Source: Botryococcus braunii (lineage: Eukaryota > Chlorophyta > Trebouxiophyceae). Taken from it: a DNA stretch of 64,000 nucleotides. Numbering within the stretch: position 1 is the stretch's first letter; each line of letters opens with the position of its first letter. The DNA lies in the NCBI GenBank assembly GCA_002005505.1, contig KV908427.1, positions 372,122 to 436,121 of the forward strand, given 5' to 3'. Both the position numbers and the translations under genes were made by a program. Shown here in pieces: positions 9,655 to 62,274 of the stretch. Below the pieces are notes generated by a model. That model searched no databases. It was not told the DNA's origin and saw only the letters and a list, made by a program, of their open reading frames with translations.

Positions 9655-9667
9655 CTTCCCCTTGCCT
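9655..9667 (-). promoter_or_regulatory. Copia A polypurine tract
   Basis: Minus-strand GGCAAGGGGAAG lies directly against the TGTTGAG start of the 3' LTR. It is the expected plus-strand primer of reverse transcription. The same tract flanks the copia C 3' LTR at 31803. Confidence 0.85.
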
Positions 9668-9674
9668 GCATGCT

Positions 9675-15303: not shown

Positions 15304-15334
15304 GGCTCACCTGGAAGGGCGTGGGCCCATAACC
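15304..15334 (-). promoter_or_regulatory. Copia A primer binding site (half-tRNA type)
   Basis: Directly after the 5' LTR, the plus strand reads like the D-arm and anticodon arm of an initiator tRNA-Met (ggctca, then gtgggcccataacc). The element's sense strand is its complement. This is the arrangement of Drosophila copia, which is primed by the 5' half of tRNA-iMet cut in the anticodon arm. The same block borders the C1 and C2 LTRs; its core is also present in copia F. Confidence 0.8.
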
Positions 15335-29400: not shown

Positions 29401-30572
29401 ATGGTGTGATACACCTGTCTGTGCGGTGGCAATCCTGGCAAACCTTGAGGAAACAAATCACTGTACTCCCTAAGGAGCACCCCCAATTGTTCCGGTTTGC
29501 CCTTCAACACCTCCTCCAGTCCCAAGGATCCCGTGAGCTTACCCGACGACGACGTTTGTTCCTCCTCCTCCTCCTCTATTATTCCCTCTTCCTCCCCCTC
29601 CACTGGGGGGTCCGAGAATAATTCCGGGACCGGCCCGCCCTGGGTACCCGGTCCCCTGGAGTTGGTTGATGAGGTGCCTGATTCGTCGTCGGAGGGATTT
29701 ACCTCGTTTCCCTCCTGGGATGATTCCCCCTCCTGCTCATCCCATGCATACTCTTCAGGTCTCATGACAACATTCAACAGACAAAGTCTCCATTGATCTA
29801 CTTTGTTCTTCCCCTTCCTCACTATGTTCATACCCCATTGCAACGTGCAGGGTAAGACTTTCCTGTGAGGGTCCAACGTTACCCACTTCCCTTGATGTTT
29901 TATTTGTGCTTTCCCAACCCCAACACTGACTGTGGCTTCCCTTGGAGACATCCAGTCTTGACCCAAAATGAGATCCACTCCCTCCATGATAGAATCACAT
30001 ACAAAGAAAGTATGGCGGGTGACTACCGAAGGGGTGAACCTAACACTAAGGTCAACCTTCCCCTTGGTTTCAGACAATGACCCATCTGCAAGGACTACTG
30101 TTGTTGCTTCCTTGTGATACCTAAGCCCTTGTAGTACTTTGCCTCGGACAAAAGAATGGGTAGCCCCAGTGTCCATGAGTGCACGAAACTCCATGCCTCG
30201 AACAGTAACGGCAAAAGTCAGGTTGAGTGGTGAGAGATTTCCCACATGCCCTACATGACAAGATGGTTGTGGCATGACACATGCAAGCACAAATGAAAAA
30301 GGAAGTATTCCTGCCTTGCCCGAGAACATGAATTGTTCATTCCTACATCCACGAGCAAGAACTTTTAGTTTGGCCTTTGTCCTGTACTCTAAGAAAAACC
30401 ACTTGCTTTTCCAGACTTTTTGACTAATAATAAAGCAGGCACCAAGGCTGGGATCATGTTTTCTCTTTGCAAAGAAATCATGCAAGCAAGCCTCTGCACA
30501 ATTTTTCTTAGGTACTACCAACTCGAAGGGTTCAGAGAGTGAAGACAAATAGGCCAAACAATGGGGATCCAT
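26460..30572 (-). pseudogene. Gypsy A pol: PR-RT-RNaseH-IN-chromo-like
   Basis: Starts MDPHCLAYLSSLSEPFELVV, an N-terminal region with no domain I recognise. Protease has [14 protein letters not shown] (near 30170). An acidic Glu/Ser linker follows, then RT with [50 protein letters not shown] and [10 protein letters not shown] (near 28915). RNase H has FQVTCDASDFGVGAVL, and integrase HPGFAKM...YCDSCQ, SMDFITGLP, VSDRDPKFVSKF and TAYHPQSDGQTERVN. The C-terminus has a chromodomain-like YWVLWSGYDVGDDWEPLDMF. Two nonsense codons break it: TGA near 29298 before RT and TAA near 27276 within integrase. Otherwise the reading is open. Confidence 0.95.
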
Positions 30573-31111: not shown

Positions 31112-31802
31112 TGTAAAGGTTATGGCAATCGGCTTTCCCTGTACAAAGCAGACAGGTCGTCAATAGACGAAGTTACTCCAGCTACAGTCCGTACGACTGT
31201 CTGCTGAGTGTCACACACAACTGTTGGAAAAGACTAGCATCTGGTAATGCCCAGCATCTTTCACAACCAGTTCCGTTACATCATTATCTTGTACACAAGC
31301 ACCGATCAAGCAATCACTAGATAAGGCTCTAGACGGCTACGTTCAAGTACATGCCTATACTCCCTAAAGTCACTGTCCCTTATCTGTTTGAGTGACTACA
31401 GGGTACACTAAGCTTGTTCACTCTCACAATAGCAACAATGATACAACACACACTGCCGCACCGTACCTGTACAAAGCAGACAGGTCGTCAATAGACGAAG
31501 TTACTCCAGCTACAGTCCGTACGACTGTCTGCTGAGTGTCACACACAACTGTTGGACAAGACTAGCATCTGGTAATGCCCAGCATTTTCACAACCAGTTG
31601 GTATTCACTCCGGTGGGGCAGCCTTAAGAGTTCATCCGACAAACGTGTGATCTAGATAGGATTGTACCTTATGTTCGAAAACGTCCAGAATCTGCCGTGT
31701 CTCAAGGTACCTTATGTTCTCAATGGACCCATATCCTAATAGTGCACACATGAAGATCACTTAAAGCACAAGGCATTCAATAATAATGTTCAGAACTCAA
31801 CA
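31112..31802 (-). repeat. Copia C2 3' LTR
   Basis: 691 bp, minus strand TGTTGAGTTCTGAACATT...TTTACA. Holds two copies of a roughly 130 bp unit, as in copia A, and GTACCTTATG motifs. The PPT (minus AGGCAAGGGGAAG) follows at 31803-31815. Confidence 0.95.
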
Positions 31803-34498
31803 CTTCCCCTTGCCTGCATGCTTTATGTGTATCTTCTCAAACCTAGTGAATCACGATGACCAATAAACACGGGCTTGGCAAGTGGCTTGGTCATAATGTC
31901 AGCCACATTGCGAGCAGATTCCACATAGAGGATATCTACCTGCCCAAGTGCCATAGCTTCCCTAGCGTAGTGGAAGCTTACGCAACGTGCTTTGTGAATT
32001 TGGAATACAGGGGGTTCCGTAAATTAGAAATGCATCCTTGGTTGTCACAGAAAATTTTGACCCTCCAAGGTGCAGCCCCTATCTCTTCCAAGAAGCCCCT
32101 TAGCCAGTTGGCTTCCTTCACAATATGGCCAGCTGCCATAAACTCAGCTTGCACAGTTGAGGTAGCAACTGAGCTCTGCTTCTTGCTTCCCCAAACCACG
32201 GCACTACCATAGACTGATAGAACATAGCCAGTGGTGGAATACCTGTGGTCCAGGTCCCCAGCATAGTCGGCATCAACATAGCCTTCTAGCTCAGGGCCCT
32301 TTCCACCCAGAGTAAGAGCTAACTCTCTGGTATCTCTCAAGTACTTCAGCACTCGAATGGCCTCATTCCAGTGTGAGGTAGTGGGTGTCATTCTATACCT
32401 TGACAACACTCCAACAGCCTGAGAAATGTCAGGCCGGGTCGTATTGGCTATGTACAGCAACGATCCAATTAACTCGCAGTATCGATGACCAGGTGGCAGA
32501 GGGGTACCAGCCCCATGTGACAACCATCTGAGGACTCGGGTCTGCTGCTAGCCACGAAGTCCTTGGACATGGGGTATCAACCCCACGCCCATCATCAGCA
32601 ACGCCAAACTTCTCCACAAGAGCATCAATCTTGGGAGTGCAACTCATGGAAATAGTGCCCTGAACTCTATTGCGTAGGACCTGACACCCCAGGAAATCAT
32701 TCACCTCTCCCAAATCATGGATGGTGAAGTCCTTCTTCAATAACTCTTTCCCCCACTCAATCTCTGCAACCACTCTGGCAACTATGAGAAGATCATCGAC
32801 ATAAACAAGAATAAACGACAGATTACCATCAGGGGCCCTCCTGATGTATACCCCAGCGTCGCTCTTGCACACACTATACCCCATCACGCTCAACTTGTCG
32901 CTCAAGGTCTTGTGCCAAGCCCGTGGGGCTTGCTTAAGACCGTAGAGTGCCTTCCTGAGCTTGCACACAACTCTCGTGTTGCCATTCTCAAATCCTGGTG
33001 GTTGGGTCACATAGACCTCTTCCTCCAACTCCCCATTGAGAAAAGCTGTCTTGATATCCATTGGTGGATCTCAAGATTTTGTGTGGCAGCCACTGCCAGC
33101 ACAGCTCTCCTAGCACCATAGCTGCTGGTAGGTGCAAAAACCTCACCAACATCTATACCAGGAATCTGTCTGCAACCCTGGGCAACCAATCTTGCTTTAA
33201 ACCGAGTGACATTCCCATGTGCATCGTTTTTTGTGAAAAAATCCAATGAACAGGGATAACTTTTGCCCATGGGGTCTTTCCACATACTGCATAACCTCAT
33301 GGGTGTCTAAAGACTCCATCTCCTCTTGCATTGCCTGCTGCCAAAACTCCCACTGAGGTGAGCGCTGGGCTTCCCTCAAGTTTGAGGGCACGTGAACTTT
33401 TCCCAACCTGACAGAGGTACACTCTGTACCTTATGCTGTGGTGCAGCAGGGCTGTCAGCCTTACTGGTGCTGTTCCTTCTCTCTCTCTCTCTCCTGTTGC
33501 CAGAATAAGGTACATTATGTACCTTATGCTGGGACTGGCAGTACTGCCGGGATTATCTGATTCCTTCTCAAGTCTCTCTCTCTCTCCTTGACTACTGGAC
33601 CATTGCAGCACCCTTACATTCTCGCACCTTCCGCAATGCAGAGGGGAGCAGCAGCTCTCTCTCTCTCCTGGACTCACACTTGGGCACACTACCCAGACTT
33701 GCCTGAGCTGCGCCTACAATGTCAGCCTGCACACCATTAGCATGACTAGCCAGTGACTGGGATTGGGCACCAGCTTCCCCTACTGCTGGCATGTCTAACC
33801 CACTACTCTCATCTCTTACATCTGCACCGAACATAGCCTCGACTGTCTCAACCTGCCCCTGCATATCAGGGAGACCAACCATGTTTGGCTCACTCACAAT
33901 TGCCTGACCTGGGTCAGGGGCATGCAATGGATGTCAGAATGCTCTCTCCTAGCCACGCGCTGTACATAACGCTGCTCCTTGTAAGGGTGGTCCTGGAGGA
34001 AGGGGAATTTGTGACTTCCCTGCATTCGCAACCCTCTTGTACCTTCTGCATTTTTTTTCTACCTGGGATTGAGTTTCTACACCCCCGGCCAGATTCTGCA
34101 TATGCTCAAGCACCGACCAGGAGTGCTGAGATGGTTCTGGGGTCCCAACAGTAGAATCCAGGCTGGTGGGGTTCCTTGGTCATGTGCTGCTATGGTCCCG
34201 TCTCCAGACTGATCCCCAGCACAAAGTCCAGAGGTCCCAGGAGCCCCAGTGGAAAGCGTCTCCACTCCATGGTCATTTCCTCATCCCAGAACGTGGGTGG
34301 AGCAGCAGAGGGAATTGCTTGAGGCGTTGCCAGATTCTCACTGCCAAGGGGGGGTGATATCCTAGAATCATAGACAGACCCAGGCTGGACCTTTGATAGA
34401 CCCACTCTCTCAGCCCCCCTCAAGTGCTCGATAAAGCTGACGTCCCTACTCTCCTTCCACACTCCATTCCCCACGTACACACGATACGCTTTAGACTG
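31803..34498 (-). pseudogene. Copia C pol, linker-RT-RNase H (broken)
   Basis: Reading down from 34498: the integrase tail KAYRVYVGNGVWKESRDV, the conserved linker (VSEPNMVGLPDMQGQVETVEAMF), RT ([42 protein letters not shown]) and RNase H (GYVDADYAGDLDHRYSTTGYVL, FCDNQGC). Frame changes lie near 31985, 32520, 32570, 33060 and 33235, several of them single-base losses in homopolymers. The start of this ORF lies across gypsy B at 43444. Confidence 0.9.
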
Positions 34499-39000: not shown

Positions 39001-40097
39001 TCCCTAAGGAGCACCCCCAATTGTTCCGGTTTGCCCTTCAACACCTCCTCCATCCCAAGGATCCCGTGAGCTTACCCGACGACGACGTTGGCTTCTCCTC
39101 CTCCCCCTCCATTATTCCCTCTTCCTCCCCCTCCACTAGGGGTTCCGAGAATAATTCCGGGACCGGCCCGCCCTGGGTACCCGGTCCCCTGGAGTTGGTT
39201 GATGAGGTGCCTGATTCGTCGTCGGAGGGATCGAGCCCGTTTTCCTCCCGGGATGACTCCTGCTCATCCCATGCATACTCTTCAGGTCTCATGACAACAT
39301 TCAACAGACAAAGTCTCCATTGATCTACTTTGTTCTTCCCCTTCCTCACTATGTTCATACCCCATTGCAACGTGCAGGGTAAGACTTTCCTGTGAGGGTC
39401 CAACGTTACCCATTCCCTTGATGTTTTATTTGTGCCTTTCCAACCCCAACACTGACTGTGGCCTCCCTTAGAGACATCCAGTCTTGTCCCAGAATGAGGT
39501 CCACCCCCTCCATAATAGAATCACATACAAAGAAAGTATGGCGGGTGACTACCGAAGGGGTGAACCTAACACTAAGGTCAACCTTCCCCTTCGTTGCAGA
39601 CAAGGACCCATCGCAAGGACTACTGTTGTTGCTTCCTTGTGATACCTAAGCCCTTGTAGTACTTTGCCTCGGACAAAAGAATGGGTAGCCCCAGTGTCCA
39701 TGAGTGCACGAAACTCCATGCCTCGAACAGTAACGGCAAAAGTCAGGTTGAGTGGTGAGAGATTTCCCACATGCCCTACATGACAAGATGGTTGTGGCAT
39801 GACACATGCAAGCACAAATGAAAAAGGAAATATTCCTGCCTTGCCCGAGAACATAAATTGTTCTCCCCTACATCCCCAAGCAAGAACTTTTAGTTTGGCC
39901 TTTGTCCTGTACTCTAAGAAAAACCTCCTGCTTTTCCAGACTTTTTGGCTAATAACAAAGCAGGCACCAAGGCTGGGATCATGTTTTCTCTTTGCAAAGA
40001 AATCATGCAAGCAAGCCTCTGCACAATTTTTCTTAGGTACTACCAACTCGAAGGGTTCAGAGAGTGAAGACAAATAGGCCAAACAATGGGGATCCAT
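36001..40097 (-). pseudogene. Gypsy B pol (broken by many small indels)
   Basis: Same domain series as gypsy A: MDPHCLAYLSSLSEPFELV start, protease [16 protein letters not shown] with [10 protein letters not shown] (near 38450), RNase H (FQVTCDASDFGVGAVL), integrase HPGSAKM, SMDFITGLP, VSDRDPKF, QSDGQTERVNRILEDYLKHYVW, and the chromodomain-like tail. The longest open run, 37898 to 36192, covers RNase H to the integrase tail. Frame changes lie near 36320, 37910, 38150, 38405, 38540, 38790, 39050, 39410 and 39610, nearly all one-base losses. Gypsy A's two nonsense codons are absent here. Confidence 0.9.
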
Positions 40098-46320: not shown

Positions 46321-46350
46321 GCTCAGCTGGAAGGGCGTGGGCCCATAACC
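46321..46350 (-). promoter_or_regulatory. Copia C1 primer binding site (half-tRNA type)
   Basis: The plus strand reads gctcagctgg, aagggcgtgg, gcccataacc, which looks like the D-arm to anticodon loop of initiator tRNA-Met. It touches the LTR end with no spacer. Seven bases into the LTR, ggttatgggc repeats it in inverted orientation. Confidence 0.8.
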
Positions 46351-47044
46351 TGTGAAAGGTTATGGGCAATCGGCTTTCCCTGTACAAAGCAGACAGGTCG
46401 TCAATAGACGAAGTTACTCCAGCTACAGTCCGTACGACTGTCTGCTGAGTGCCACACACAACTGTCGGACAAGACTAGCATCTGGTGATGCCCAGCATCT
46501 TTCACAACCAGTTCCGTTACATCATTATCTTGTACACAAGCACCGATCAAGCAATCACTAGATAAGGCTCTAGACGGCTACGTTCAAGTACATGCCTATA
46601 CTCCCTGAAGTCACTGTCCCTTATCTGTTTGAGTGACTACAGGGTACACTAAGCTTGTTCACTCTCACAATAGCAACAATGATACAACACACACTGCCGC
46701 ACCGTACCTGTACAAAGCAGACAGGTCGTCAATAGACGAAGTTACTCCAGCTACAGTCCGTACGACTGTCTGCTGAGTGCCACACACAACTGTCGGACAA
46801 GACTAGCATCTGGTGATGCCCAGCATCTTTCACAACCAGTTGGTATTCACTCCGGTGGGGCAGCCTTAAGAGTTCATCCGACAAACGTGTGATCTAGATA
46901 GGATTGTACCTTATGTTCGAAAACGTCCAGAATCTGCCGTGCCTCAAGGTACCTTATGTTCTCAATGGACCCATATCCTAATAGTGCACACATGAAGATC
47001 ACTTAAAGCACAAGGCATTCAATAATAATGTTCAGAACTCAACA
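46351..47044 (-). repeat. Copia C1 5' LTR
   Basis: 694 bp. Same structure as the other C LTRs, with the duplicated unit. On its right it abuts gypsy D pol (CTTCC at 47045), which is not the TTAAT seen at the outer C element, so it belongs to a separate insertion. Confidence 0.95.
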
Positions 47045-48575
47045 CTTCCTCCTTTAGCCTTACTTGATGATAACCACTGAGGAGGTCCAGACTAGAGAAA
47101 ATCTTAGCACCTTTAAGTTTATCAAGCAAGTCGTCTATGCGAGGGAGAGGGTACCTATCATGAATGGTGATTTTATTTAATGCCCTGTAGTCTATAACCA
47201 TTCGGTATGTGCCCTCCTTCTTCCTCACAAACAAGACCGGTGAAGCATATGGTGAACATGAGGGGCGTATGTGTCCCTTAGTAAGTAGTTCATCCACAGT
47301 TCGCTCACATTCCTCAGTTTCTTCCACGGACAAGCGGTAAGCAGGACGGTTTGGAGGAGTTATTCCTTCCTGCACATTAATAGTGTGATAGACTTGTCGG
47401 TGTGGGGGTAGTCCTGGTAGCCCATTTGGAAAAATGTCCTTGTATTCCCGGAGCAAGTGTGCTAACCGCTCAGGCTTTTTAGCACAAATTTCCTCTAGAG
47501 GGTCCGAAGGCTTACCCGTGGTGACCTCGGATTCTCCCTCTTCCTCTTCCTTTTCCTCTTCCCTTTCCTCTTCCTCTTCCACTTCCTTCTCCACTTCTAG
47601 GCAACTCTCCATATCCGGGGCCGTGCCCGAGGTATCCCCCGGCGCAGAGTTGTGTAAGGAAGTCCCGGATGACTCCGTCGAGGGGTCGTCCATGTCCGCC
47701 AAAGGTGGCATCTCTTCCTGTTCATCCCAACCAACATGTTCATCCTTAGCCATGACATTGAACAAGCAGGTTTTCCAATGATCCCGTTTCCCTTTCCTGG
47801 TGTTTCCTAATTTGATTCCCCATCCCAACTTCTTTCCCAAGCCTTTTCCATGTTTGTTTAACAAGACCCATTTGTTATTGTGTCTAATATGAGCCTTGCC
47901 AGCTCTCACATTAACATTAGCATGTCGTGGTGCTAGCCAATCCTGTCCCAAAATAATGTCAATTCCTTCCATTATTGAGTCACACACAAGAAAGGAGTGT
48001 CTCGTAATGATAGATGGAGCAAACCGGACACTCAAATCCACTTTCCCATTTGTGTGTGTTACTGTCCCATCAGCAAGTGTGACGGGTGAAGTCCTCTTGT
48101 TATACCTCAAACCTTGCAAAACTTTTTCCCGGACAAAAGAGTGTGTGGCCCCGGTGTCCATTAAAGCTTTACATTGTTGTCCCCTTGCCATGACAGGAAA
48201 TGTGAGGTTAAGAGGTGCAGCACTTGACGTTGAACCCAACTGACAAGATGCTTTGGGTGCTGCATAAGCTAAAACAAAGGAAAAAGGAAATGTACATTGC
48301 TGTCCTTGAAAAGAAAAGCATTCCCCTTTTGAGCCCCTAGCAAGAATTTTCAGGTTTGCGCGAGAGCGTAACCGCAAAAAGAAACTCCTACTTTTCCACA
48401 CCTTCTGGCCTATCACAAAGCATGCACTGACTTGTGAATTTTCTTTTCGTTCAGCAAGAAAAGATTCAATACAAGTCTCAGCTTTGTGTTTGCCAGGAAC
48501 AATCAGAGGTGTATTCCAACTTTCCAAGGACTTCTGAACAAGAAAAGTTAAATATGAAAAACAAATTTCATTCAT
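47045..48575 (-). pseudogene. Gypsy D pol, N-terminal part (cut in RT)
   Basis: Starts [20 protein letters not shown] two bases after the Gag stop, in another frame. Protease [20 protein letters not shown]; a long acidic Glu/Asp/Ser linker (47500-47620); then RT with [72 protein letters not shown] and [17 protein letters not shown]. It is open to the last codon before the copia C1 LTR cuts it. YxDD, RNase H and integrase are missing from the window. Confidence 0.9.
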
Positions 48576-48577
48576 GG

Positions 48578-49816
48578 TTAATCTTGTTTAGGGCCCTTGC
48601 CCTTCCCTTTCCCTTTCCAATGTTTTCCCTTGTTAAATCCCTTAGGCCCAATGTGTGAGGGAGGTGAAACACCTTGCAGTGGTGCTGCCACTGGTTGATT
48701 GTTTCCTTGCCTCGGATAGAATCCAGGCTGAAAATTTGATGGGGTGTGCCCACTAGCTTGAGCTTTGGCAGCTAGATATTGCTTTTTAGCAACACACTGC
48801 CATGACTCGTGGCCTAGTTTATGACAAAAATAGCATTCCCTATCCTTTGGAATAGAGGTTCTGGAATCAATTTTTCTCCCGGACCCAAAAGGGGGTGCTC
48901 CCACCAAACCCAAGGAAGGTGGTGCAGGGGGCTGTTGTTCCACCACTCCTGCTGCCACTTGAGGTGTCTGGGTGTAGACCCTCTTCCTCTTGGGTCCCTG
49001 TGCATCCACATATGTGCTTTTGAGACTTGCCTCATATTTAACAACATAAGTGCAAATGTCTTCCAGATCAGTGAAAGGACTGCCTGTTGCAGGGTTCACA
49101 GTGCATGCAAGTTTGAGAGGAGTATTAAGACCCTTGGTAAAAAGATGTAACTGGTCTTGCATGGCTATTTGATAGTCAACCTCTACATCTGCTAAGAGAG
49201 ACATAAATCTTTCAATATATCTCTCGACAGTCTCATTTCCTTGAAAGACTTTGTCTAATTTTGCCCTGGCAATGGCCACTGTGTCTGTGGAATCATATCT
49301 TTTAACCATAAAAGTTTTAAAATCCTTCCATTCCAATGTATGCTCATGTATCCCTTCCTTTTCTAGTTTCCTTACATGTGTGTCCCAAACTTTTGTAGGT
49401 CTTTCTTCCATCAATTGCACTCCCAAGGCCACCCACTTTCCTGCAGGCACATTGGTTAGTTTTGCATAGCCTTCCAACTTCCTTGCAAAATAGCAAAAAG
49501 ATCCCCTCTTTCCCGAAAACAAAGAAGGAGGAGTTGCTCTTACTTGTCCACTAGGGCGAGGAGTCTCCTCCACCCCATCCCCTCCAACTTGCCTTTCGGC
49601 AAGAAGCTTTTCCTTAAATTCCAAAAATAACTGCTCCTTTATTTTATTGGTTAACTTGATCTTCTTTGTCTTTGGTGTGGACGGAGCGGGCGACGGATCG
49701 CGAGATGCCCCCTCCATCAAGTCCTCAACCAGCTCCCCTGAGCTTTCCAACGCTTCCAAAAATTCTCTTTCTTGCGAAGAAAGGTTTTTAAACTTCCCAG
49801 AAGAGGGCGGTGCCAT
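48578..49816 (-). CDS. Gypsy D Gag, intact
   Basis: 412 codons without interruption from [26 protein letters not shown]. An acidic start and a Lys-rich patch ([14 protein letters not shown]) are followed by the capsid-like block [70 protein letters not shown], and [20 protein letters not shown]. The zinc knuckle is [14 protein letters not shown], followed by a Gly/Lys tail ([17 protein letters not shown]). This is the structural protein of the virus-like particle and packages element RNA. It is the only uninterrupted Gag of the gypsy elements here, although its pol is lost. Confidence 0.9.
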
Positions 49817-49920
49817 CTACGGCCCACATATGAGAGTTAGGACCTTCCATCGAACGATCTCCCTCCTACGACTTTCCTCCTTCCACCACGCGAAAGACTT
49901 TCAGAGAACAATTCGGCATC

Positions 49921-49932
49921 TCGCCGATACCA
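49921..49932 (-). promoter_or_regulatory. Gypsy D primer binding site
   Basis: Minus strand TGGTATCGGCGA, two bases after the LTR, continuing GATGCC. Same 12-mer as in gypsy E and G2. Confidence 0.85.
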
Positions 49933-49934
49933 GA

Positions 49935-50409
49935 TGTCGTAGAATGCACAAGTTAGAGAGAATTTCCAAGTTGTGAGAGAGAGAGAGACAAGGCCGGATG
50001 GCCGACAAGTTGGACGCTCTTTCCAATTACAAGTAACCCCCACCTCACGGAGCTTCCACTCCCTACTTGTGGTCTACTAAGCTTCCAAATTACCTGAGTG
50101 CGTGTCTTCCCGTGGCTTACGTCTCTATCCGTTCCTTCCCGTGGTTCGTGATCGTGTGTTCCGTTCCTCCAATGGTAGCGCACTAGTCCACCAAACCTCT
50201 ACAATAGTATCTAGAAAATATCCTAGAATCCTACTATGAGAGTAACGTCCATAACTATCCAATGGAATTCGACGGCTAGGAAGCCAAGGCTAGACGCTAG
50301 GCACGTGCGTACTCGCGTTGCTCGTACGACATGTGCGCTACATGTGCGCCTAGGCTAGGGGGTAAGGGAAATGTCCAGAAATGCCGGGAAATCCCTACAT
50401 TCCATCACA
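49935..50409 (-). repeat. Gypsy D 5' LTR
   Basis: 475 bp; minus strand TGTGATGGAATGTAGGG...GCATTCTACGACA. Close to the solo LTR at 53665-54140, and related to the decayed LTR at 2002. Confidence 0.95.
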
Positions 50410-51202
50410 GTGCAGCTCCAGCGCTTGATGACGCTCTAGCTACCCCCCAGGAGGGACCAGCCACTGCTGCAGCTGCCATGGCCTGAGGTGTTCCCTCTGC
50501 AGGTGGGTCCTTGTACCCACGGCTGGCTGCGGCGCGCAGGATTCTTTGAATCAGCTCCAATGGCGGCTTGTCGGTTGCCATAACCTCCAGGGACTCGAGC
50601 CTCAGCACAGGAGGGAGGCCCTTCACCATCAGCTCCCCAACATTGTGGTCCAAGAGGATGAACGCGTTGTTTCTGAGACTTGTAGCCAAATCCATCATTC
50701 TGTAGAGGTAGACCTTGAGTATCTCCCCTGTCTTAATGCCCTGCTCCATTTCCTTGTACCACTCAAGGTTGATGTCTTGGTTGCTCCCTCCAGTGTGACT
50801 GTTCTTCACCCACGTGATGAAGTCGAACGCTGCTTTGTGGCATGAGATCTCAGAATGCCAGATGACTGGAACTGACTGGATCAGCCACTGCTTGATGGCT
50901 GAGTTCTCCACCGACCCTGGCATTGGCCTCTCCAAAGCTGCTCTGACCCCCTTGGTGTTTGCGCACGCCTCCAAAGCTTCATACCAAAATTCAAAATTGC
51001 GCCCTCCATCATCAAGCATGACGGTCATCTTTGGATTAGAGGTATTGGGGATGTAGGCTGCCTTGTCAATCTCCACCTTTGGTTCTGCAGTGGCTGATTG
51101 TGTCCCGGTCATAGACTGCCCTGGAGTGGCCCCACTGACTTCTCCAGGTTGAGACATTGCTGTTTCACTGCTACTTTCCTTTTCTTTGCCCCTTTTTGTC
51201 AT
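50410..51202 (-). pseudogene. Copia C2 Gag, N-terminal part
   Basis: Almost the same as the first 260 codons of C1 (MTKRGKEKESSSETAMSQPGEVSG, NFEFWYEALEACANTKG, WYKEMEQGIKTGEILKVYLYR). Ends at GAAL where gypsy D is inserted. The zinc knuckle and everything after it are not found on the other side of gypsy D. Confidence 0.9.
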
Positions 51203-51592
51203 ACTATTGTCACTTCACCAGCCAAACTTACTCATAAACTTCTGGAATGCAGCAATACCCTACAATTCCCTCCATGTCATGGAAATTTACCAGCCAGTCT
51301 TGCACAGTAGTAGCAGATATGTTCCCCTCAGAAGTTTGCGCCGGAGTCCGGCCCGACTCACTCAGTGCTTCTAGACAACGTCGATGAATGATAAAGCACA
51401 GCTAAAACTTCAATTATGAATTTCCCAGAAAGGTAAACTGTGAGTAAGATAATGGTCCTTGTACACTCGAGTTCCCTTGCGCCGCTGCGCCATGCTCGAG
51501 CTCCTTTGTTGACGCTTACGTCTGACCCATCCGTAGACGACCTTCACTCCTGCTTTTACTTGGCTCAGCTGGAAGGGCGTGGGCCCATAACC
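51203..51592 (-). other. Copia C2 leader and primer site
   Basis: Nearly the same as the C1 leader. The last 30 bases before the LTR carry the initiator-tRNA-like block (ggctcagctgg...gcccataacc). Confidence 0.75.
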
Positions 51593-52287
51593 TGTAATAA
51601 GGTTATGGACAATCGGCTTTCCCTGTACAAAGCAGACAGGTCGTCAATAGACGAAGTTACTCCAGCTACAGTCCGTACGACTGTCTGCTGAGTGTCACAC
51701 ACAACTGTTGGACAAGACTAGCATCTGGTAATGCCCAGCATCTTTCACAACCAGTTCCGTTACATCATTATCTTGTACACAAGCACCGATCAAGCAATCA
51801 CTAGATAAGGCTCTAGACGGCTACGTTCAAGTACATGCCTATACTCCCTGAAGTCACTGTCCCTTATCTGTTTGAGTGACTACAGGGTACACTAAGCTTG
51901 TTCACTCTCACAATAGCAACAATGATACAACACACACTGCCGCACCGTACCTGTACAAAGCAGACAGGTCGTCAATAGACGAAGTTACTCCAGCTACAGT
52001 CCGTACGACTGTCTGCTGAGTGTCACACACAACTGTTGGACAAGACTAGCATCTGGTAATGCCCAGCATCTTTCACAACCAGTTGGTATTCACTCCGGTG
52101 GGGCAGCCTTAAGAGTTCATCCGACAAACGTGTGATCTAGATAGGATTGTACCTTATGTTCGAAAACGTCCAGAATCTGCCGTGTCTCAAGGTACCTTAT
52201 GTTCTCAATGGACCCATATCCTAATAGTGCACACATGAAGATCACTTAAAGCACAAGGCATTCAATAATAATGTTCAGAACTCAACA
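51593..52287 (-). repeat. Copia C2 5' LTR
   Basis: 695 bp. Followed on the right by TTAAT, the same five bases that precede the 3' LTR at 31112, so these two LTRs bound one original insertion. Confidence 0.95.
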
Positions 52288-54940: not shown

Positions 54941-55132
54941 ATGGATCCCCATTGTTTGGCCTATTTGTCTTCACTCTCTGAACCCTTCGAGTTGGTAGTA
55001 CCTAAGAAAAATTGTGCAGAGGCTTGCTTGCATGATTTCTTTGCAAAGAGAAAACATGATCCCAGCCTTGGTGCCTGCTTTGTTATTAGCCAAAAAGTCT
55101 GGAAAAGCAGGAGGTTTTTCTTAGAGTACAGG
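54941..55132 (+). pseudogene. Gypsy E Pol, start, before copia F
   Basis: MDPHCLAYLSSLSEPFELVV to WKSRRFFLEYR, then cut by copia F. With copia F and one ACAGG removed, the frame runs on directly into TKAKLKVLARG at 62275. Confidence 0.9.
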
Positions 55133-55662
55133 TGTTGGGTTTTGTACTTCATTATGTCATGTTAATTAACATGCGTGCGTGCGTGCACGTGCGTGCGTGC
55201 GTGCGTGTGTGAAGGTACAATCACATGTAATAATTAGCTGTAAGTTAACCAAGCAGTTAACTCAAGGTAAAGACATCTTGACAATGGCTATGAACGATCA
55301 ATCTATGAGTATTAATGCATTGAGAGATATTTATTCTATGGCTGTAAATACCTTCCAGCCTTTAGTGGCTGGAAGACATGCATCTAGAGTTAATAAATGT
55401 GTTACTGTAGGATAAGGGTCCAAATTCTGTGGATAGGAACCCTGAGCATGTCCTAATGTTCGTGAAAAAGGCCAGTAGCAGTGCTGGACAGCGCGTTTCC
55501 CACGCGCTGATCTGAGTACAGATAGCCAGAGAACCCGGACCACCAGGCAGTCATTCGATCTCTTTGGCTTGTTAAGCCGACTCCTGAATGGACTCATGTG
55601 AATTGCTTTCTTTCTCTCTCACTTGTTGTGAGAAACTTCTGTGGAAGCAATTGCTATATGTG

Positions 55663-55754
55663 GTAAGTCGGGGCTCTGCCGGTCATGTTTTTGATCACGG
55701 CCATAAGTGCCGTTTTGATGATCAGAGACTAATATGGGTATGTGAATGTTGCAG
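55663..55754 (+). other. Putative intron A in the copia F LTR
   Basis: 92 bp, gtaagtcgggg...gaatgttgcag. Missing exactly from unit 2, where ctatatgtg joins directly to aattgttcatc. Confidence 0.85.
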
Positions 55755-55816
55755 AATTGTTCATCAGTTTGACGCTGTCGACTATGTATGTCTTGGTCAA
55801 ACTGATTAAGTACATG

Positions 55817-55901
55817 GTAAGTCAGCTATGTGACGGCTGAGGGGTGCTTATAGATAAGGTTCATCATATGCAATGAACTAAAGGTGTTAGTGTGTTCACA
55901 G
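55817..55901 (+). other. Putative intron B in the copia F LTR
   Basis: 85 bp, gtaagtcagct...gtgttcacag. Missing exactly from unit 2, where aagtacatg joins directly to gatgatatac. Confidence 0.85.
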
Positions 55902-56009
55902 GATGATATACTTGTGAGTATAGTCATCATTTATGACTAATATAACACCTTTGGATCTTTGCAGGTAAGACTATTTAGTGTGTGTGTTCGTTCGACAGTA
56001 GTTTGTAAG

Positions 56010-56246
56010 TCATTCGATCTCTTTGGCTTGTTAAGCCGACTCCTGAATGGACTCATGTGAATTGCTTTCTTTCTCTCTCACTTGTTGTGAGAAACTTCTG
56101 TGGAAGCAATTGCTATATGTGAATTGTTCATCAGTTTGACGCTGTCGACTATGTATGTCTTGGTCAAACTGATTAAGTACATGGATGATATACTTGTGAG
56201 TATAGTCATCATTTATGACTAATATAACACCTTTGGATCTTTGCAG
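56010..56246 (+). repeat. Copia F LTR duplication, unit 2 (intronless)
   Basis: 237 bp, the spliced version of unit 1. It is followed by ATCACA, the LTR end. A 45 bp spacer (55965-56009) that itself starts gtaag and ends ag separates the units. Counterpart in the 3' LTR: 62027-62263. Confidence 0.95.
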
Positions 56247-56253
56247 ATCACAA

Positions 56254-56268
56254 TGGTTATGGGCCCAC
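56254..56268 (+). promoter_or_regulatory. Copia F primer binding site (half-tRNA type)
   Basis: tggttatgggcccac, one base after the LTR. The 14-mer ggttatgggcccac is the complement of the anticodon arm of initiator tRNA-Met and matches the sites of copia A and C. Confidence 0.8.
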
Positions 56269-56272
56269 ATCC

Positions 56273-56503
56273 ATGGGGTCTCGACGCTTAGAGGCGCAGC
56301 GAGCGAACGCCACCCTCTTTGACGTTGAACATCTCCGCAGAGGATGCTTCTACTGTGACGCGTGCGAAAAGTATTTTGTTGGGAAAGTCCCGTTAGTGCA
56401 AGTTGCATCGGCCATCGATCCTGTTATCTATTTGAACGATATTGTGACATTGGACTTTCCTGGAAAGAAACACAAACAAACGTACGCATTGGAAGTGAAG
56501 TAA
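56273..56503 (+). CDS. Small leader ORF of unknown function
   Basis: 76 codons, MGSRRLEAQRANATLFDVEHLRRG, with CFYCDACEKYF, a CxxCxxC cluster like a zinc ribbon knuckle, and ending FPGKKHKQTYALEVK. It lies between the PBS and Gag, where copia elements normally have only an untranslated leader. The composition looks protein-like. I recognise no family. It could be a real upstream ORF or captured coding sequence, or chance. Confidence 0.35.
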   Translation: MGSRRLEAQRANATLFDVEHLRRGCFYCDACEKYFVGKVPLVQVASAIDPVIYLNDIVTLDFPGKKHKQTYALEVK

Positions 56504-56729
56504 AGTATCCCTATCGACCGTTTAGGGAGCCGTTGGTTGACTAAGCTTGAAAGTTCTGGGAATTGAATTTTGTACAGCACAGGTATTGGGTTGGTTCACT
56601 GCATAAAGAAGTTGAAGAGCTGTCAAACTCTGGCATTGAACGTCCCTTGAATACATCGCTGTATCGCTTATTAATTGTAATTGAGATCCGTAAGTCATTA
56701 GCTGCTGAATTTGATCACAGATTGCCTTC
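56504..56729 (+). other. Copia F leader, remainder
   Basis: Noncoding stretch up to the Gag ATG. Nothing further recognised. Confidence 0.5.
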
Positions 56730-57965
56730 ATGAGTGGGTCAGCTGGTGCATCTGCTCCTGGTGGAGCAACTGGTACAGGTGTTACTGCAGTTGTTGTATC
56801 AGGCAGCACAGGAGACCCACTAAACCCAGTCTATAACACACAGAAGTTGGCCCAATCACTTGATGTGTTATGCATAAATGGTTTCAGATGGATGAAGGAT
56901 GTAGAGAATGTTGCTAGTAGCAAGAAAATCAAGGTGTGTTTGGATGAGGAACATCCTGACACACCAGGTGATGCTTTGGCTAAGAGCCTAGTTACTGAAA
57001 AAATTCCAGATGAGTGGGTTGATGCAGCTCTGGACAAGCCTACAGCCAAGGAGGCGTATGACTGGCTGAAAGGCAAGTTCACAGGCGGAAAGAACCAGAA
57101 GCTCATGTCAAAATGGGCCTTTCTGCTTGACTCGGGTAAAATTGAGGATGCCCAGACTTACATGGCATTTGTGGCCATGAAGTACAAGCTGGCTAGAGGT
57201 TTGAGGGCTAACAAACACCCTGTTGATGAGGAGCGCCTTGCCATGGGTATAGTTAGCTGCCTTCCCAAGGCCTTTACCCACAGTCAGTCCCATTTGTATG
57301 ATTCATGTGTGGGGAAAGATGAGGATGAGGTTGTATCTCGTATCAGTGCATGTGCCAAGTTTCTGGGCATTGATCAGGAGAAAGCTCCCTCTGCTTCTGC
57401 AAATCTTGTTCCCTCTGGTCCCCCTAGACCAAAGAATGCACCTGGGTTTGATGGCAATAGACCCAGGGGCATGCCCCATGACGTGCCTACCAACTTTCAT
57501 GGGTGCTGGTTCTGCTTAGAGGAGGGTCACATCAGGCTGAATTGTCAGAAGTACAAAGATGATTGCGCCAGAAGGGCTGCAATCCTGGCTGGCAGAGGGC
57601 GACCTCAAAATTCTGTAGGAGGAATGGCAACTACATACTCCTCTGACTCAGGTGAATTGTCCTCACAGTGGGTGATAGATTCTGGGGCCTCCACACATGT
57701 GTGTAATGATGTACGTCTGATGCATAATGTTCACTGGTATCCAATTCCAAAGGGTTTAAATCTAGCCACTGGCGAACACGTGGCGCAGCGTAAGGCATGT
57801 GGGACTGTGTGCTTGGTGGATCAGCAGGGAAATACATGCATATTGAGAGATGTTGAACTTGTTCCAACTGCATTGGAAAATTTAATGTCAGTGTCTGCTG
57901 GAGTTGTTGATGGTTTAAATTTTTCAACAAATCCACTAGGAGAAGTCACACATGTTTGCTACTAG
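56730..57965 (+). CDS. Copia F Gag-protease
   Basis: 411 codons. An N-terminal Ala/Gly/Thr-rich start (MSGSAGASAPGGATGTG) precedes a UBN2/copia-type capsid region: QKLAQSLDVLCINGFRWMKDVEN, IPDEWVDAALDKPTAKEAYDWLKGKFTG, and RLAMGIVSCLPKAFTHSQSHLYD. A zinc knuckle CWFCLEEGHIRLNC starts at residue 259. The protease has WVIDSGASTHVCND with the catalytic Asp at about residue 317, and ATGEHVAQRKACGTVCLVD, ENLMSVSAGVVDGLNF. It ends with TAG, after which the same frame continues for 1052 codons. The stop may separate Gag-PR from a readthrough Gag-Pol, or be a recent mutation. Confidence 0.9.
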   Translation: MSGSAGASAPGGATGTGVTAVVVSGSTGDPLNPVYNTQKLAQSLDVLCINGFRWMKDVENVASSKKIKVCLDEEHPDTPGDALAKSLVTEKIPDEWVDAALDKPTAKEAYDWLKGKFTGGKNQKLMSKWAFLLDSGKIEDAQTYMAFVAMKYKLARGLRANKHPVDEERLAMGIVSCLPKAFTHSQSHLYDSCVGKDEDEVVSRISACAKFLGIDQEKAPSASANLVPSGPPRPKNAPGFDGNRPRGMPHDVPTNFHGCWFCLEEGHIRLNCQKYKDDCARRAAILAGRGRPQNSVGGMATTYSSDSGELSSQWVIDSGASTHVCNDVRLMHNVHWYPIPKGLNLATGEHVAQRKACGTVCLVDQQGNTCILRDVELVPTALENLMSVSAGVVDGLNFSTNPLGEVTHVCY

Positions 57966-57986
57966 AAGTCATCGTTTCGAGTAGAA

Positions 57987-60900
57987 GTGACAAAAGAAAG
58001 AGGACTATACTTCTGCTCAGTGATATGTCAGTCAGTAAAGTTGCCCCATGTTGCTGGCATTGCACACAAGTGTTCAGAGTACGACTTATGGCATGCAAGA
58101 CTAGGACACCCTAGCAGTAAAAACATGGAACGCTTGCAAACCGAAGATATGGTGAAAGGCATTGAGACGTCATTATCACCTTGCAATCATGGTCACTCAC
58201 ATTGTGAGGTTTGTGTTCTGGGGAAGCAGACTAGAGAGAGCTACCCACGCTCTCCGGCAACGGCTACAGAGCGATTAGAGATTGTCCACATGGATATTGT
58301 GGGTGAACTGCCTGTACCGGGTGCTGAAGGAGAGAGATACATGCTCACCATGCTGGATGATTTCTCAAAGGCGGGTGTTGCAAGGGCATTGGTCCTGAAG
58401 TCTCAGGTGGGTGATGCTGTTAGAGCAATTCTCCTGTACTTAGAAAATCAGACTGGCCATACTGTAAAAGTTGTCAGGACTGATAGAGGGACTGAGTTTG
58501 TAAACTCAGATTTGCGTGAGTTCTTTCAGTCAAAGGGGATAAGACACGAGACGTCTGCCCCTTATACCCCGCAACAAAATGGCCGGGCCGAACGCTTTAA
58601 CCGTTCCTTGAAAGAGAAGGTTAGAATGTTGCTGCTACAGGCTAAGGCTCCACAAAGCTTGTGGACCGAAGCGCTGCCTACTGCTGTTAGGTTACTAAAC
58701 CTCAGGGCAATTAAGGGGAAGACTGCTACCCCTTATGAGCTATTATTTGGCAGGAAGCCTGCTGTTCATTACTTGAGGGTATTTGGCTGTCTGGCATACA
58801 TCAAAACGCCTGACAAGGATCTGTCTGCCTTTTCTCCTAGATCAGAGGCAGGAATGTTTGTCGGGTACGAACCAGCATCTAAGGCATATAGAGTGCTGGT
58901 TGGGGATAAGATCAAGGTGTCAAAAAATGTGAAATTTTTTGAAGACAAATTGGGTATCCACACTCTCTCTACAGATACCCAACTGCCCCCTGATTTCCCA
59001 CGTGATGTAAACTGTGATCAGGTGCCAAGCTCTGCAGACGAAGAGGACTGGGATTTTGTCCCAGTTGACATTGCTGAGGCAGTGGACATGAACAGGGAAG
59101 CTGGAAGGGGAGAAGACCAAATCCTACCAGCTAACGTAGAAGTGTTGCAGAGACTCAATGAAGTACTAAGGCAACAAGCTCCGGCGGAAGAGAGTGGGAA
59201 CAGGGATACACATGGTCCAGGCGTCTCAGGGGAAGAGTCAATGGGCCCTGGGGATGAGCAGGAACAGCCAGGAGATGGTGAAAATGATCCCGGTAGTGAC
59301 TCGGATCAGGACCGCTCATCACAGGAGTCTGACAGTGGGGATGAGGCGCAGGTTAGGGTAAGAGGTGGGATGAGTAGGTATGATCTTAGAGAGACACTTG
59401 CTCAACCTGATAAGTATATACCTGGATCTTACTTTGTCAAAGACGATGCGATAGCAGGAGCAACAAGGGTCACATCACCTAACCAAAATGGTGCAAAGGA
59501 GAAGGAGGTCCTGTCCTCTAGGAATGTAAAAATCCCTAACGATTGGTTTGAGGCGAGGAATTCACCTCAATGGGTATACTGGAAGGAGGCTATGAATGAG
59601 GAAATGGACTCAATTGAGTCTCATGAGACATTTGAATACTGTCACAAGCCTTCCCATGCCAAGGTGATCCCACTGAAGTGGGTTTATGCAATTAAAACTG
59701 ATGGTTTTGGGGATGTAATCAGGTTCAAGGCGAGGCTTGTGGCACAAGGATGCAAACAAAGACCAGGGGTGGATTATTTTGAGACTTTTGCTCCTGTCAG
59801 TTCACACTCGTCCAGGCGTGTGCTTCTGAATCTGGCAAACGCTAAGGGATGGAAGGTACATCAGGTAGATATTAAAACTGCCTTTCTTAATGGGTCCTTA
59901 GAGGAGGAAGTTTATGTAACTCAACCCCCCTGTTTCTCTAATGGTGATTCGAGTAGAGTATGTAAGCTTCTGAAATCATTGTATGGCCTGAAGCAGGCCC
60001 CACGCGCGTGGCATAAGCGCCTTGTTGAAGAGCTTAGCAAGTTTGGCTTTACTGCCTGCAAAAGCGATTCATCACTGTTTGTCAACAAGGAATCCTATGA
60101 GTCACATGTTTACTTGCTGACTTATGTTGATGACTTGTTGATTGTATGCAAGGAAGGGGAAACCATTGAGCAAGTCAAATCTAAGCTCACTTGTAGTTTC
60201 TCTATTCATGATCTTGGTGAGATTAAATCATTTCTGGGATGTGAAATCACCAAAGATGAGACCACTGGGAGCCTCAAGATGACTAACGTATTAAAAATTG
60301 AGAGGCTGGTGGAGGAGTATGGACTTCCTGCACAAGGCAGGGATGTTGATACTCCAATGGCGCATGGGTTTGTCACTTCACAAAATCCAGAGCCACCCTT
60401 GGGGGCTGGTGGTGAGCAGGTAGGAGCAGGCACACCATTGCCAGAGGGTCACAGGTATCTGGAGCTCGTGGGATCACTACAATACCTAGCTACCACAACT
60501 AGGCCTGACATAGCTCAGGCTGTGGGGGTTTTGAGTCGGTTCAGGGGGCAACCTACGACAGCGCATTGGAATGGTGCTATAAGAGTACTGAGGTACTTAA
60601 ATTGCACTAAGGAAATGGGCATAACGTACACTAACTCTGGTGACAATGAGTTGGTGGGATACGTGGATGCAGATTTTGCTGGTGACTTGGATGGAAGAAA
60701 ATCAACCACAGGGTTTGTTCTTCTTCTAAACGGGTCAGCAGTGTCTTGGTGCAGCAAGAAGCAATCTTCAGTGTCTACATCTACTGTGGAAGCTGAATTT
60801 GTTGCGACTGCTGCGGCAGTAAAGGAGGTAATGTGGATGGGTGGTATGCTGGAAGAGCTTGGAGTCACAGTGAAGACTGTCAAGCTATTCTGTGATAATC

Positions 60901-61124
60901 AAGGGGCTATACAGCACTTGAAAAATCACATAGTGTCAAAGTTCACTAAGCATATCAGCATCAGCTATCATTATGCACGTGAGAAAGTGGCTTGGGGGCA
61001 GATTGACCCTGTCTATGTTGCTACATCTGAAAATGTAGCAGATATGTTTACCAAACCACTGGCATCTGCTGCATTTGAGAAGCATAGGGCTAAATTGGGT
61101 GTTTCAGGACCTGCTTTTAATTAA
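57987..61124 (+). CDS. Copia F integrase-RT-RNase H
   Basis: 1045 codons from the first ATG, in the same frame as Gag-PR; the frame is open from 57966. Integrase: LWHARLGHPSSKNM (about residue 34), C-x-C zinc pair HCEVCVLGKQTRESYP, VHMDIVGELPVPG, VRTDRGTEFVNSD and YTPQQNGRAERFNRSLKEK, so D, D and E are present. An acidic linker spans residues about 340-500. [65 protein letters not shown] and YVDDLLIV at about residue 713. RNase H: GYVDADFAGDLDGRKS, STVEAEF, FCDNQGA, ending ENVADMFTKPLASAAF. All catalytic residues I can place are intact. Confidence 0.95.
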   Translation: MTKERGLYFCSVICQSVKLPHVAGIAHKCSEYDLWHARLGHPSSKNMERLQTEDMVKGIETSLSPCNHGHSHCEVCVLGKQTRESYPRSPATATERLEIVHMDIVGELPVPGAEGERYMLTMLDDFSKAGVARALVLKSQVGDAVRAILLYLENQTGHTVKVVRTDRGTEFVNSDLREFFQSKGIRHETSAPYTPQQNGRAERFNRSLKEKVRMLLLQAKAPQSLWTEALPTAVRLLNLRAIKGKTATPYELLFGRKPAVHYLRVFGCLAYIKTPDKDLSAFSPRSEAGMFVGYEPASKAYRVLVGDKIKVSKNVKFFEDKLGIHTLSTDTQLPPDFPRDVNCDQVPSSADEEDWDFVPVDIAEAVDMNREAGRGEDQILPANVEVLQRLNEVLRQQAPAEESGNRDTHGPGVSGEESMGPGDEQEQPGDGENDPGSDSDQDRSSQESDSGDEAQVRVRGGMSRYDLRETLAQPDKYIPGSYFVKDDAIAGATRVTSPNQNGAKEKEVLSSRNVKIPNDWFEARNSPQWVYWKEAMNEEMDSIESHETFEYCHKPSHAKVIPLKWVYAIKTDGFGDVIRFKARLVAQGCKQRPGVDYFETFAPVSSHSSRRVLLNLANAKGWKVHQVDIKTAFLNGSLEEEVYVTQPPCFSNGDSSRVCKLLKSLYGLKQAPRAWHKRLVEELSKFGFTACKSDSSLFVNKESYESHVYLLTYVDDLLIVCKEGETIEQVKSKLTCSFSIHDLGEIKSFLGCEITKDETTGSLKMTNVLKIERLVEEYGLPAQGRDVDTPMAHGFVTSQNPEPPLGAGGEQVGAGTPLPEGHRYLELVGSLQYLATTTRPDIAQAVGVLSRFRGQPTTAHWNGAIRVLRYLNCTKEMGITYTNSGDNELVGYVDADFAGDLDGRKSTTGFVLLLNGSAVSWCSKKQSSVSTSTVEAEFVATAAAVKEVMWMGGMLEELGVTVKTVKLFCDNQGAIQHLKNHIVSKFTKHISISYHYAREKVAWGQIDPVYVATSENVADMFTKPLASAAFEKHRAKLGVSGPAFN

Positions 61125-61133
61125 CTGACATGT

Positions 61134-61149
61134 GAAGCAAGGGGAAGAT
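61134..61149 (+). promoter_or_regulatory. Copia F polypurine tract
   Basis: gaagcaaggggaagat directly before the 3' LTR. Confidence 0.9.
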
Positions 61150-62269
61150 TGTTGGGTTTTGTACTTCATTATGTCATGTTAATTAACATGCGTGCGTGCG
61201 TGCACGTGCGTGCGTGCGTGCGTGTGTGAAGGTACAATCACATGTAATAATTAGCTGTAAGTTAACCAAGCAGTTAACTCAAGGTAAAGACATCTTGACA
61301 ATGGCTATGAACGATCAATCTATGAGTATTAATGCATTGAGAGATATTTATTCTATGGCTGTAAATACCTTCCAGCCTTTAGTGGCTGGAAGACATGCAT
61401 CTAGAGTTAATAAATGTGTTACTGTAGGATAAGGGTCCAAATTCTGTGGATAGGAACCCTGAGCATGTCCTAATGTTCGTGAAAAAGGCCAGTAGCAGTG
61501 CTGGACAGCGCGTTTCCCACGCGCTGATCTGAGTACAGATAGCCAGAGAACCCGGACCACCAGGCAGTCATTCGATCTCTTTGGCTTGTTAAGCCGACTC
61601 CTGAATGGACTCATGTGAATTGCTTTCTTTCTCTCTCACTTGTTGTGAGAAACTTCTGTGGAAGCAATTGCTATATGTGGTAAGTCGGGGCTCTGCCGGT
61701 CATGTTTTTGATCACGGCCATAAGTGCCGTTTTGATGATCAGAGACTAATATGGGTATGTGAATGTTGCAGAATTGTTCATCAGTTTGACGCTGTCGACT
61801 ATGTATGTCTTGGTCAAACTGATTAAGTACATGGTAAGTCAGCTATGTGACGGCTGAGGGGTGCTTATAGATAAGGTTCATCATATGCAATGAACTAAAG
61901 GTGTTAGTGTGTTCACAGGATGATATACTTGTGAGTATAGTCATCATTTATGACTAATATAACACCTTTGGATCTTTGCAGGTAAGACTATTTAGTGTGT
62001 GTGTTCGTTCGACAGTAGTTTGTAAGTCATTCGATCTCTTTGGCTTGTTAAGCCGACTCCTGAATGGACTCATGTGAATTGCTTTCTTTCTCTCTCACTT
62101 GTTGTGAGAAACTTCTGTGGAAGCAATTGCTATATGTGAATTGTTCATCAGTTTGACGCTGTCGACTATGTATGTCTTGGTCAAACTGATTAAGTACATG
62201 GATGATATACTTGTGAGTATAGTCATCATTTATGACTAATATAACACCTTTGGATCTTTGCAGATCACA
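61150..62269 (+). repeat. Copia F 3' LTR
   Basis: 1120 bp, same as the 5' LTR as far as I can compare, including the intron-containing and intronless units. Confidence 0.97.
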
Positions 62270-62274
62270 ACAGG

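Follow-up and report, generated by a model that had tools for sequence, protein, structure and literature searches.

Long terminal repeats of a copia retrotransposon family in Botryococcus braunii hold an unspliced and a spliced copy of one leader and are probably built for replication through spliced RNA

Introduction

Several plant retrotransposons with long terminal repeats (LTRs) make spliced RNA. The spliced RNA of BARE1 in barley is described as serving translation (PMC3735527), and a review names Ogre and EVADE among the plant elements with spliced RNA (PMC12786077). According to the account of BARE1, LTR elements have to avoid replicating the spliced form (PMC3735527), and retroviruses are stated to need an unspliced genomic transcript (PMC3694450). 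In foamy viruses, a splice donor is present inside the LTR upstream of the poly(A) signal, where U1 is reported to suppress the 5' poly(A) site (PMC3694450). Here we describe an element of the green alga Botryococcus braunii, which we classify as a young Ty1/copia LTR retrotransposon, located at 55133-62269 of a 64,000-nucleotide stretch of contig KV908427.1 (the window). Each of its LTRs holds the same leader segment twice, once with introns and once without. This LTR is very probably built to replicate via a spliced genomic RNA, the second copy being renewed from the spliced first copy in every cycle.

Results

A sequence-only reading of the window had reported that the 5' LTR contains one segment in tandem, the second copy (unit 2) being the first (unit 1) minus two blocks of 92 and 85 bp, each running from gtaagt to cag. 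This was confirmed to the letter: excision of 55663-55754 and 55817-55901 from 55551-55964 gives exactly 56010-56246, and the blocks read gtaagt...ttgcag and gtaagt...tcacag. The same arrangement had been noted in the 3' LTR and is indeed present there, 61150-62269 being identical to the 5' LTR. The repeat is real, but it starts two bases ahead of the proposed 55551 and 56010, at the AGTCATTCG that opens both units, so that unit 1 corresponds to 55549-55964 and unit 2 to 56008-56246 (Table 1). The position of the blocks is not unique, with two possible registers for the first and three for the second; for each block, one of these registers yields GT...AG. Unit 1 is directly followed by GTAAG and unit 2 by ATCACA and the primer binding site. 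An R-U5-like unit is present twice per LTR, as opposed to the single R of a conventional LTR, which is composed of the U3 (unique 3'), R (repeat) and U5 (unique 5') regions.

The same layout was found in sister families of the 176-Mb assembly to which the window belongs. When the genome was searched at the protein level with P0012, 51 matches were listed, among which were groups at 72-74%, 67% and 64% identity; the window element belongs to the last of these. The upstream DNA was taken at four listed places: L117 (family S1), L120 (S1b, 93% identical to L117), L118 (S2) and L119, an older copy of family O, as we call the family of the window element. In L117, L120 and L118, the order is U3, exon 1, intron 1, exon 2, intron 2, exon 3, spacer, the three exons joined, a tail and the primer site. 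The spacer measures 41-42 nt, the tail 6-8 nt, and the primer site is that of O, with two extra bases in S2. Intron 1 is 92, 92, 85 and 92 nt long and intron 2 is 85, 86, 85 and 83 nt long in O, S1, S1b and S2, respectively, and all 8 internal blocks of these LTRs can be placed as GT...AG. When unit 1 is spliced in silico, it matches unit 2 in 239/239 columns in O, 252/252 in S1, 251/253 in S1b and 248/249 in S2. Between families, the identity of unit 2 amounts to 0.60 (O-S1), 0.715 (O-S2) and 0.57 (S1-S2), shuffled sequence giving 0.51-0.52. The changes that separate S1b from S1 occur in both S1b units, for example in exon 2. Since three sister-family LTRs show one layout with different sequences, the layout is not due to chance.

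These families also bear on a third intron-like block that had been noted in both units. Its GTGAGT donor does exist in family O but is missing from exon 3 of S1, S1b and S2, and a third intron within exon 3 was therefore rejected. Common to O, S1, S1b and S2 is the 3' end of exon 3, GGATCTTTGCAG or GGATCTTGCAG, which we read as the putative acceptor of a larger intron (intron 4) that includes unit 2. GT at the start of the spacer and AG at the end of unit 2 are found in O, S1, S1b and S2, as well as in the families A and B described below. As exon 3 carries the predicted acceptor of intron 4, it would have to be copied in each cycle, which accounts for the third intron-like block.

Family O was searched in the genome with two 28-base patterns, up to 3 mismatches being allowed; this gave 216 exon-1 and 222 exon-2 matches. 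The copies examined come from 100 listed matches per pattern, all of them perfect, and the sample leans to copies with perfect exon patterns. They form 54 LTR clusters, namely 43 full two-unit LTRs, 4 with the order U3-E1-E2-E3 and 1 with U3-E1-I1-E2-E3 (E, exon; I, intron), and 6 partial ones, two of which represent a single C134 LTR interrupted by an insertion. Among the 54 clusters, none shows an intron in unit 2 and none an intronless unit 1 with the spacer kept. Eight variable sites were listed for the 43 two-unit LTRs. The two units agree in 43/43 LTRs at sites 23 (3 G/G), 83 (18 A/A, 25 T/T), 107 (3 A/A) and 109 (28 C/C, 15 T/T), and in 42/43 at site 210. Differences between unit 1 and unit 2 summed to 81 within these LTRs, a sum that never fell below 132 when unit 2 was shuffled among LTRs 10,000 times; 16 LTRs had no difference and the largest count was 8. 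Of the non-reference letters in an earlier tally of 44 unit pairs, 87 were shared by the two units, 27 were confined to unit 1 and 47 to unit 2. Because the units carry the same subfamily alleles and are 99-100% identical to each other in four LTRs, despite 57-72% identity between families, unit 2 has to undergo renewal, the simplest view being that this happens each time the element replicates. With unit 2 being a DNA version of spliced sequence that each family renews, spliced RNA would appear to be what is replicated.

A version of this arrangement lacking introns 1 and 2 is present in two other copia families of the window, A and B (Table 1). The five LTRs of this type in the window have units that are 98.5-100% identical, including a fragment LTR at 31115-31811 with 1 mismatch and a gap between its units. 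Units of A and B are equal at 107 of 128 aligned bases (21 differ, plus gaps), likewise for unit 1 and for unit 2, and the spacers at 142/182. Since the differences are the same in both units and the spacers can be aligned, the duplication predates the A-B split and the units have changed together since. In the genome, 40 of 1384 candidates were scored for family A, and these span 703 or more of the 704 LTR bases with 99% identity or more. The reverse transcriptase end of A is 56% identical to that of the window element (289/514). Families A and B may be lines that lost introns 1 and 2 or never had them. Of note, part of the primer site is found again, as its inverted complement (CCATAACC...GGTTATGG), at their LTR ends (15322-15351 and 51580-51610, minus strand), a feature not seen in O, S1 or S2; a hairpin spanning the LTR end and the primer site is possible.

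The sequence-only reading had suggested searching the genome for relatives with one unit, and such LTRs do exist, accounting for 5 of the 54 clusters (U3-E1-E2-E3 in L108/L081, L085, L103 and L105; U3-E1-I1-E2-E3 in L072). The primer site does not follow any of them. Perfect 5-bp repeats flank L108 (cggac), L103 (ttatg) and L072 (gactg), the 5-bp repeat of L085 lies in low-complexity sequence and L105 has no clear repeat. With matching 5-bp flanks in 4/5, they look like solo LTRs, and they fit unequal LTR-LTR recombination between exons 1 or between exons 2. These solo-LTR features, the missing primer site and the matching flanks, led us to reject the single-unit LTRs as ancestors, and we did not count them as evidence for partial splicing, as recombination would explain them. 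A three-unit LTR (G000:C89:211162-212226), with two unspliced units followed by a spliced one according to the spacing of pattern matches, is as expected from unequal exchange. It was dropped as proof for reverse transcription of unspliced RNA because its partner LTR (205144-205748) has two units. Two other rearranged copies were observed: a young one (L091, C190:12600-14500) whose U3 is partly duplicated (about 105-226 twice), and a two-unit LTR joined end-to-end with an inverted spliced O unit via a rearranged primer-site-like stretch (L104, 1207-1501).

Signals at the borders of the units were examined in the six families or subfamilies. A candidate promoter element, ACGCGCTG, is found exactly 47 nt ahead of unit 1 in 4/4 LTRs (O, S1, S1b and S2). 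It is absent from the A and B LTRs, where TATTAAAG and TCTTAAGG are seen by eye about 30 nt ahead of unit 1. TGTAA, a predicted poly(A) signal of the chlorophyte type, starts before unit 2 in 6/6 LTRs, by 4 nt in O, S1, S1b and S2 and by 8 nt in A and B. The chance of finding it 4-9 nt upstream of a random position is 0.49%, and it is not enriched over the whole window (104 found versus 117 expected). In the chlorophytes covered by a survey of such signals, Pyramimonas excepted, UGUAA is described as peaking around -17 from the cleavage site (PMC1868727). With cleavage at that distance, the RNA would extend 13 or 9 nt into unit 2.

We propose the following cycle. Transcription would start at unit 1, within AGTCA, and introns 1, 2 and 4 would be spliced out of the 5' end of the transcript. 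Intron 4 would extend from the donor just past unit 1 to the acceptor with which unit 2 ends, and would enclose the spacer with its poly(A) signal as well as unit 2 in full. The resulting leader would consist of exons 1-2-3, the 6-nt tail and the primer site, i.e. exactly unit 2 plus tail. At the 3' LTR, unit 1 would be kept unspliced and the RNA would end past UGUAA, some 13 nt into unit 2. Minus-strand strong-stop DNA, synthesised on the spliced leader, would then transfer to this short R. The 3' end of the RNA would thus supply U3, the intron-bearing unit 1 and the spacer of the new LTR, and the 5' end a unit 2 that has just been spliced. Unit 1 would serve as the template from which unit 2, the processed copy, is renewed. 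The element would probably benefit in that an intron hides the poly(A) site of its 5' LTR.

This scheme was put to a bookkeeping test, in which new LTRs were assembled from their parts. With introns 1, 2 and 4 removed, O, S1, A and B were reproduced letter for letter (4/6), S2 with 1 mismatch and S1b with offsetting 1-nt indels (its raw count of 129 reflects a frame shift). In contrast, the length was altered in 6/6 LTRs if there was no splicing or if only introns 1 and 2 were removed, and in the four LTRs having introns 1 and 2 if intron 4 alone was removed.

We considered the possibility that a one-time event was followed by continuing gene conversion in DNA, or by template switching, between the exons of the two units, which seems unlikely. 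Conversion would homogenise the exons, and unequal exchange between units does appear to occur after insertion, as seen with the single-unit solo LTRs and the three-unit LTR. Yet, working on exon tracts of 59-129 bp, it would have to affect every one of the three exons, family by family, without running past the ends of the units, and the two mixed arrangements that were missing from all 54 clusters speak against it. Nor does it account for the unit borders, with their splice-site-like ends and TGTAA. We give very little weight to a second possibility, that of an ordinary LTR in which transcription starts at unit 2, everything upstream including unit 1 is U3, and rare upstream transcripts occasionally renew unit 2. 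A TGTAA just ahead of unit 2 would suit the U3/R border of such a conventional LTR. However, frequent starts at unit 2 would cause unit 2 to be inherited from unit 2, and differences between the units would build up between families, which is not observed; furthermore, the fixed-distance ACGCGCTG sits ahead of unit 1 rather than unit 2. Lastly, unit 2 is by far best explained by splicing and subsequent reverse transcription, as the sequence-only reading had it, but the other part of that reading, an ancestral accident that was then fixed, fails: a single joining of spliced cDNA behind its unspliced source in one ancestor, with both inherited as ordinary LTR sequence, would yield the exact intron loss and the unspliced-spliced order but predicts separate histories for the units, whereas alleles are common to both and identity is 99-100% within four LTRs versus 57-72% between families, making this scenario, refuted unless combined with homogenisation, highly improbable.

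Several points weigh against renewal of unit 2 from a spliced unit 1 in each cycle. The proposed cycle does not account for how introns 1 and 2, spliced out at the 5' end of the RNA, would be retained at its 3' end, and the RNA steps of the cycle are deduced from DNA sequence. The units agree less well at sites 106 (40/43), 215 (40/43) and 216 (39/43). At site 106, three LTRs (two on C164, one on C172) are A/G, with an allele found only in unit 2; this is not predicted by strict renewal, unless the allele is recurrent or was passed on by recombination. Of 80 distinct discordant alleles, 4 are common to at least two O LTRs. L119, the older O copy, has the same layout with units that are 91-97% identical, a divergence that we put down to change after insertion. 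The layout in the sister families was read from single LTRs, one each of S1, S1b and S2, and motifs common to O, S1 and S2 may reflect common descent only. Use of the chlorophyte poly(A) signal by these elements is an assumption.

As to the element itself, the integrase domain precedes the reverse transcriptase domain (Pfam domains in the 57987-61124 frame: gag_pre-integrs, residues 16-81; rve, 95-195; RVT_2, 547-791), the LTRs are of the TG...CA type and the target site duplication measures 5 bp. The duplicated acagg is present once at 30381-30385 and at 39906-39910, in paralogous stretches of the window without the element, as deduced from the overlap of repeat matches. Copia elements are primed by a half-tRNA, and the primer site found here is complementary to the internal anticodon region of a tRNA-Met, which we take to be the initiator from its stem sequence. 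The matching sequence, TGGGCCCATAACCCA, occurs at three places in the genome. Two are tRNA-Met(cat) genes according to ARAGORN (L121, 69-142; L123, 61-133), which gave no tRNA for the third (L122) and found none in the 64-kb window.

In the window copy, an in-frame stop (57963-57986) splits gag from pol despite the identical LTRs; the other listed copies are open for 1469 residues. A 31-nt block, GTAAGT...ATCACAG (56690-56720), is located shortly ahead of the gag ATG (56730), and its TTTGATCACAG recurs near the 3' end of L118, ahead of the gag start of S2. This block is possibly the acceptor of a further leader intron or of a subgenomic RNA. The window as a whole (1-64000) has 19 open reading frames of at least 250 aa, by eye mostly encoding gypsy and copia proteins, and many nested repeats.

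Table 1. Positions in the window of the parts of the family O element and of the family A and B elements
Feature	Position	Strand	Remarks
5' LTR	55133-56252	+	TG...CA, 1120 bp
ACGCGCTG, candidate promoter element	55502-55509	+	47 nt upstream of unit 1 start
Unit 1 exon 1	55549-55662	+	boundary of unit 1/unit 2 repeat; predicted transcription start in first bases, AGTCA
Intron 1	55663-55754	+	92 nt, GTAAGT...TTGCAG; missing from unit 2
Unit 1 exon 2	55755-55816	+	
Intron 2	55817-55901	+	85 nt, GTAAGT...TCACAG; missing from unit 2
Unit 1 exon 3	55902-55964	+	ends in 3' splice-site-like GGATCTTTGCAG, directly followed by 5' splice-site-like GTAAG
Predicted intron 4 (spacer + unit 2)	55965-56246	+	GTAAG...TTTGCAG; putative splicing, without which an LTR would not keep two units
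TGTAA, predicted chlorophyte-type poly(A) signal	56004-56008	+	spacer/unit 2 border
Unit 2 (spliced copy, exons 1-3)	56008-56246	+	matches spliced unit 1 at 239/239; predicted R (first ~13 nt) and U5 (remainder)
LTR tail	56247-56252	+	ATCACA
Primer binding site	56255-56267	+	GGTTATGGGCCCA; complementary to anticodon region of tRNA-Met; half-tRNA type primer
gag + Pol_BBD portion of polyprotein	56730-57965	+	stop codon at its end in window copy
Integrase + reverse transcriptase portion	57987-61124	+	gag_pre-integrs, rve, RVT_2
3' LTR	61150-62269	+	letter-identical to 5' LTR; unit 1 61566-61981, TGTAA 62021-62025, unit 2 62025-62263
Target site duplication	55128-55132 (left), 62270-62274 (right)	.	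acagg, 5 bp
Family A element	8952-16037	-	copia; same primer site as window element
Family A 5' LTR	15334-16037	-	136-nt unit twice, 136/136 identical; spacer 197 nt ending TGTAACGT
Family A 3' LTR	8952-9654	-	2 mismatches between units
Family B element	46350-52287	-	copia; same primer site as window element
Family B 5' LTR	51592-52287	-	134-nt unit twice, 134/134 identical; spacer 194 nt ending TGTAACGG
Family B 3' LTR	46350-47054	-	units 100% identical

Discussion

It is likely that a whole lineage of copia elements replicates obligately via spliced genomic RNA. Its introns would escape loss because the intron-bearing master leader is inherited through the 3' end of the RNA, the processed copy being rewritten from the spliced 5' end in each cycle. 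If so, this would be a new way for such elements to replicate, in which the LTR keeps its leader in two forms, gene-like and processed, and renews one from the other. It would also mean that the poly(A) problem posed by having two LTRs is solved by placing the 5' poly(A) site inside an intron. As unit 2 would record the splicing of the founding RNA, the genomic copies would form a splicing record, and differences between unit 1 and unit 2 could serve to date insertions within one LTR, two-unit solo LTRs included.

A search of the literature, mostly open-access texts and in part extracts, yielded no description of an LTR that pairs an unspliced with a spliced copy of its leader, nor of such copies being renewed through splicing, which is not proof of novelty. 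A search of viral contigs for relatives outside this genome gave 8 weak matches, which were not used.

Among described systems, Penelope-like elements share terminal repeats and the keeping of host introns through retrotransposition, but they differ in reverse transcriptase and endonuclease, and the cited portion of the work on them describes no paired spliced and unspliced units (PMC3846280). Their combination of a Penelope-type reverse transcriptase with GIY-YIG was not found here, Pfam giving RVT_2 and rve, and no GIY-YIG, on the two frames. In the template-switch LTR elements of Triticeae, abnormal strand transfer also builds complex LTR elements, as rare accidents (2 template-switching complexes tabulated), whereas a conserved, repeating cycle is proposed here (PMC1950507). 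The likeness to foamy viruses resides in the window donor GT at 55965, 39 nt upstream of TGTAA (56004), as judged on sequence alone; the sections of the foamy virus paper cited describe no doubled, spliced R-U5 (PMC3694450).

With Ty1/copia elements, whose gene order is that of Drosophila copia, the window element shares integrase before reverse transcriptase, TG...CA LTRs, a 5-bp target site duplication and a primer site matching the anticodon region of tRNA-Met. It differs from them in that its LTR holds unspliced and spliced leader copies and that the predicted start is a whole unit upstream of R. Unlike in BARE1, EVADE and Ogre, the replicated RNA of the window element appears to be spliced, and the introns would return from the 3' LTR. 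As replication of a spliced RNA normally strips introns for good, the paired-unit arrangement would be a way round that rule.
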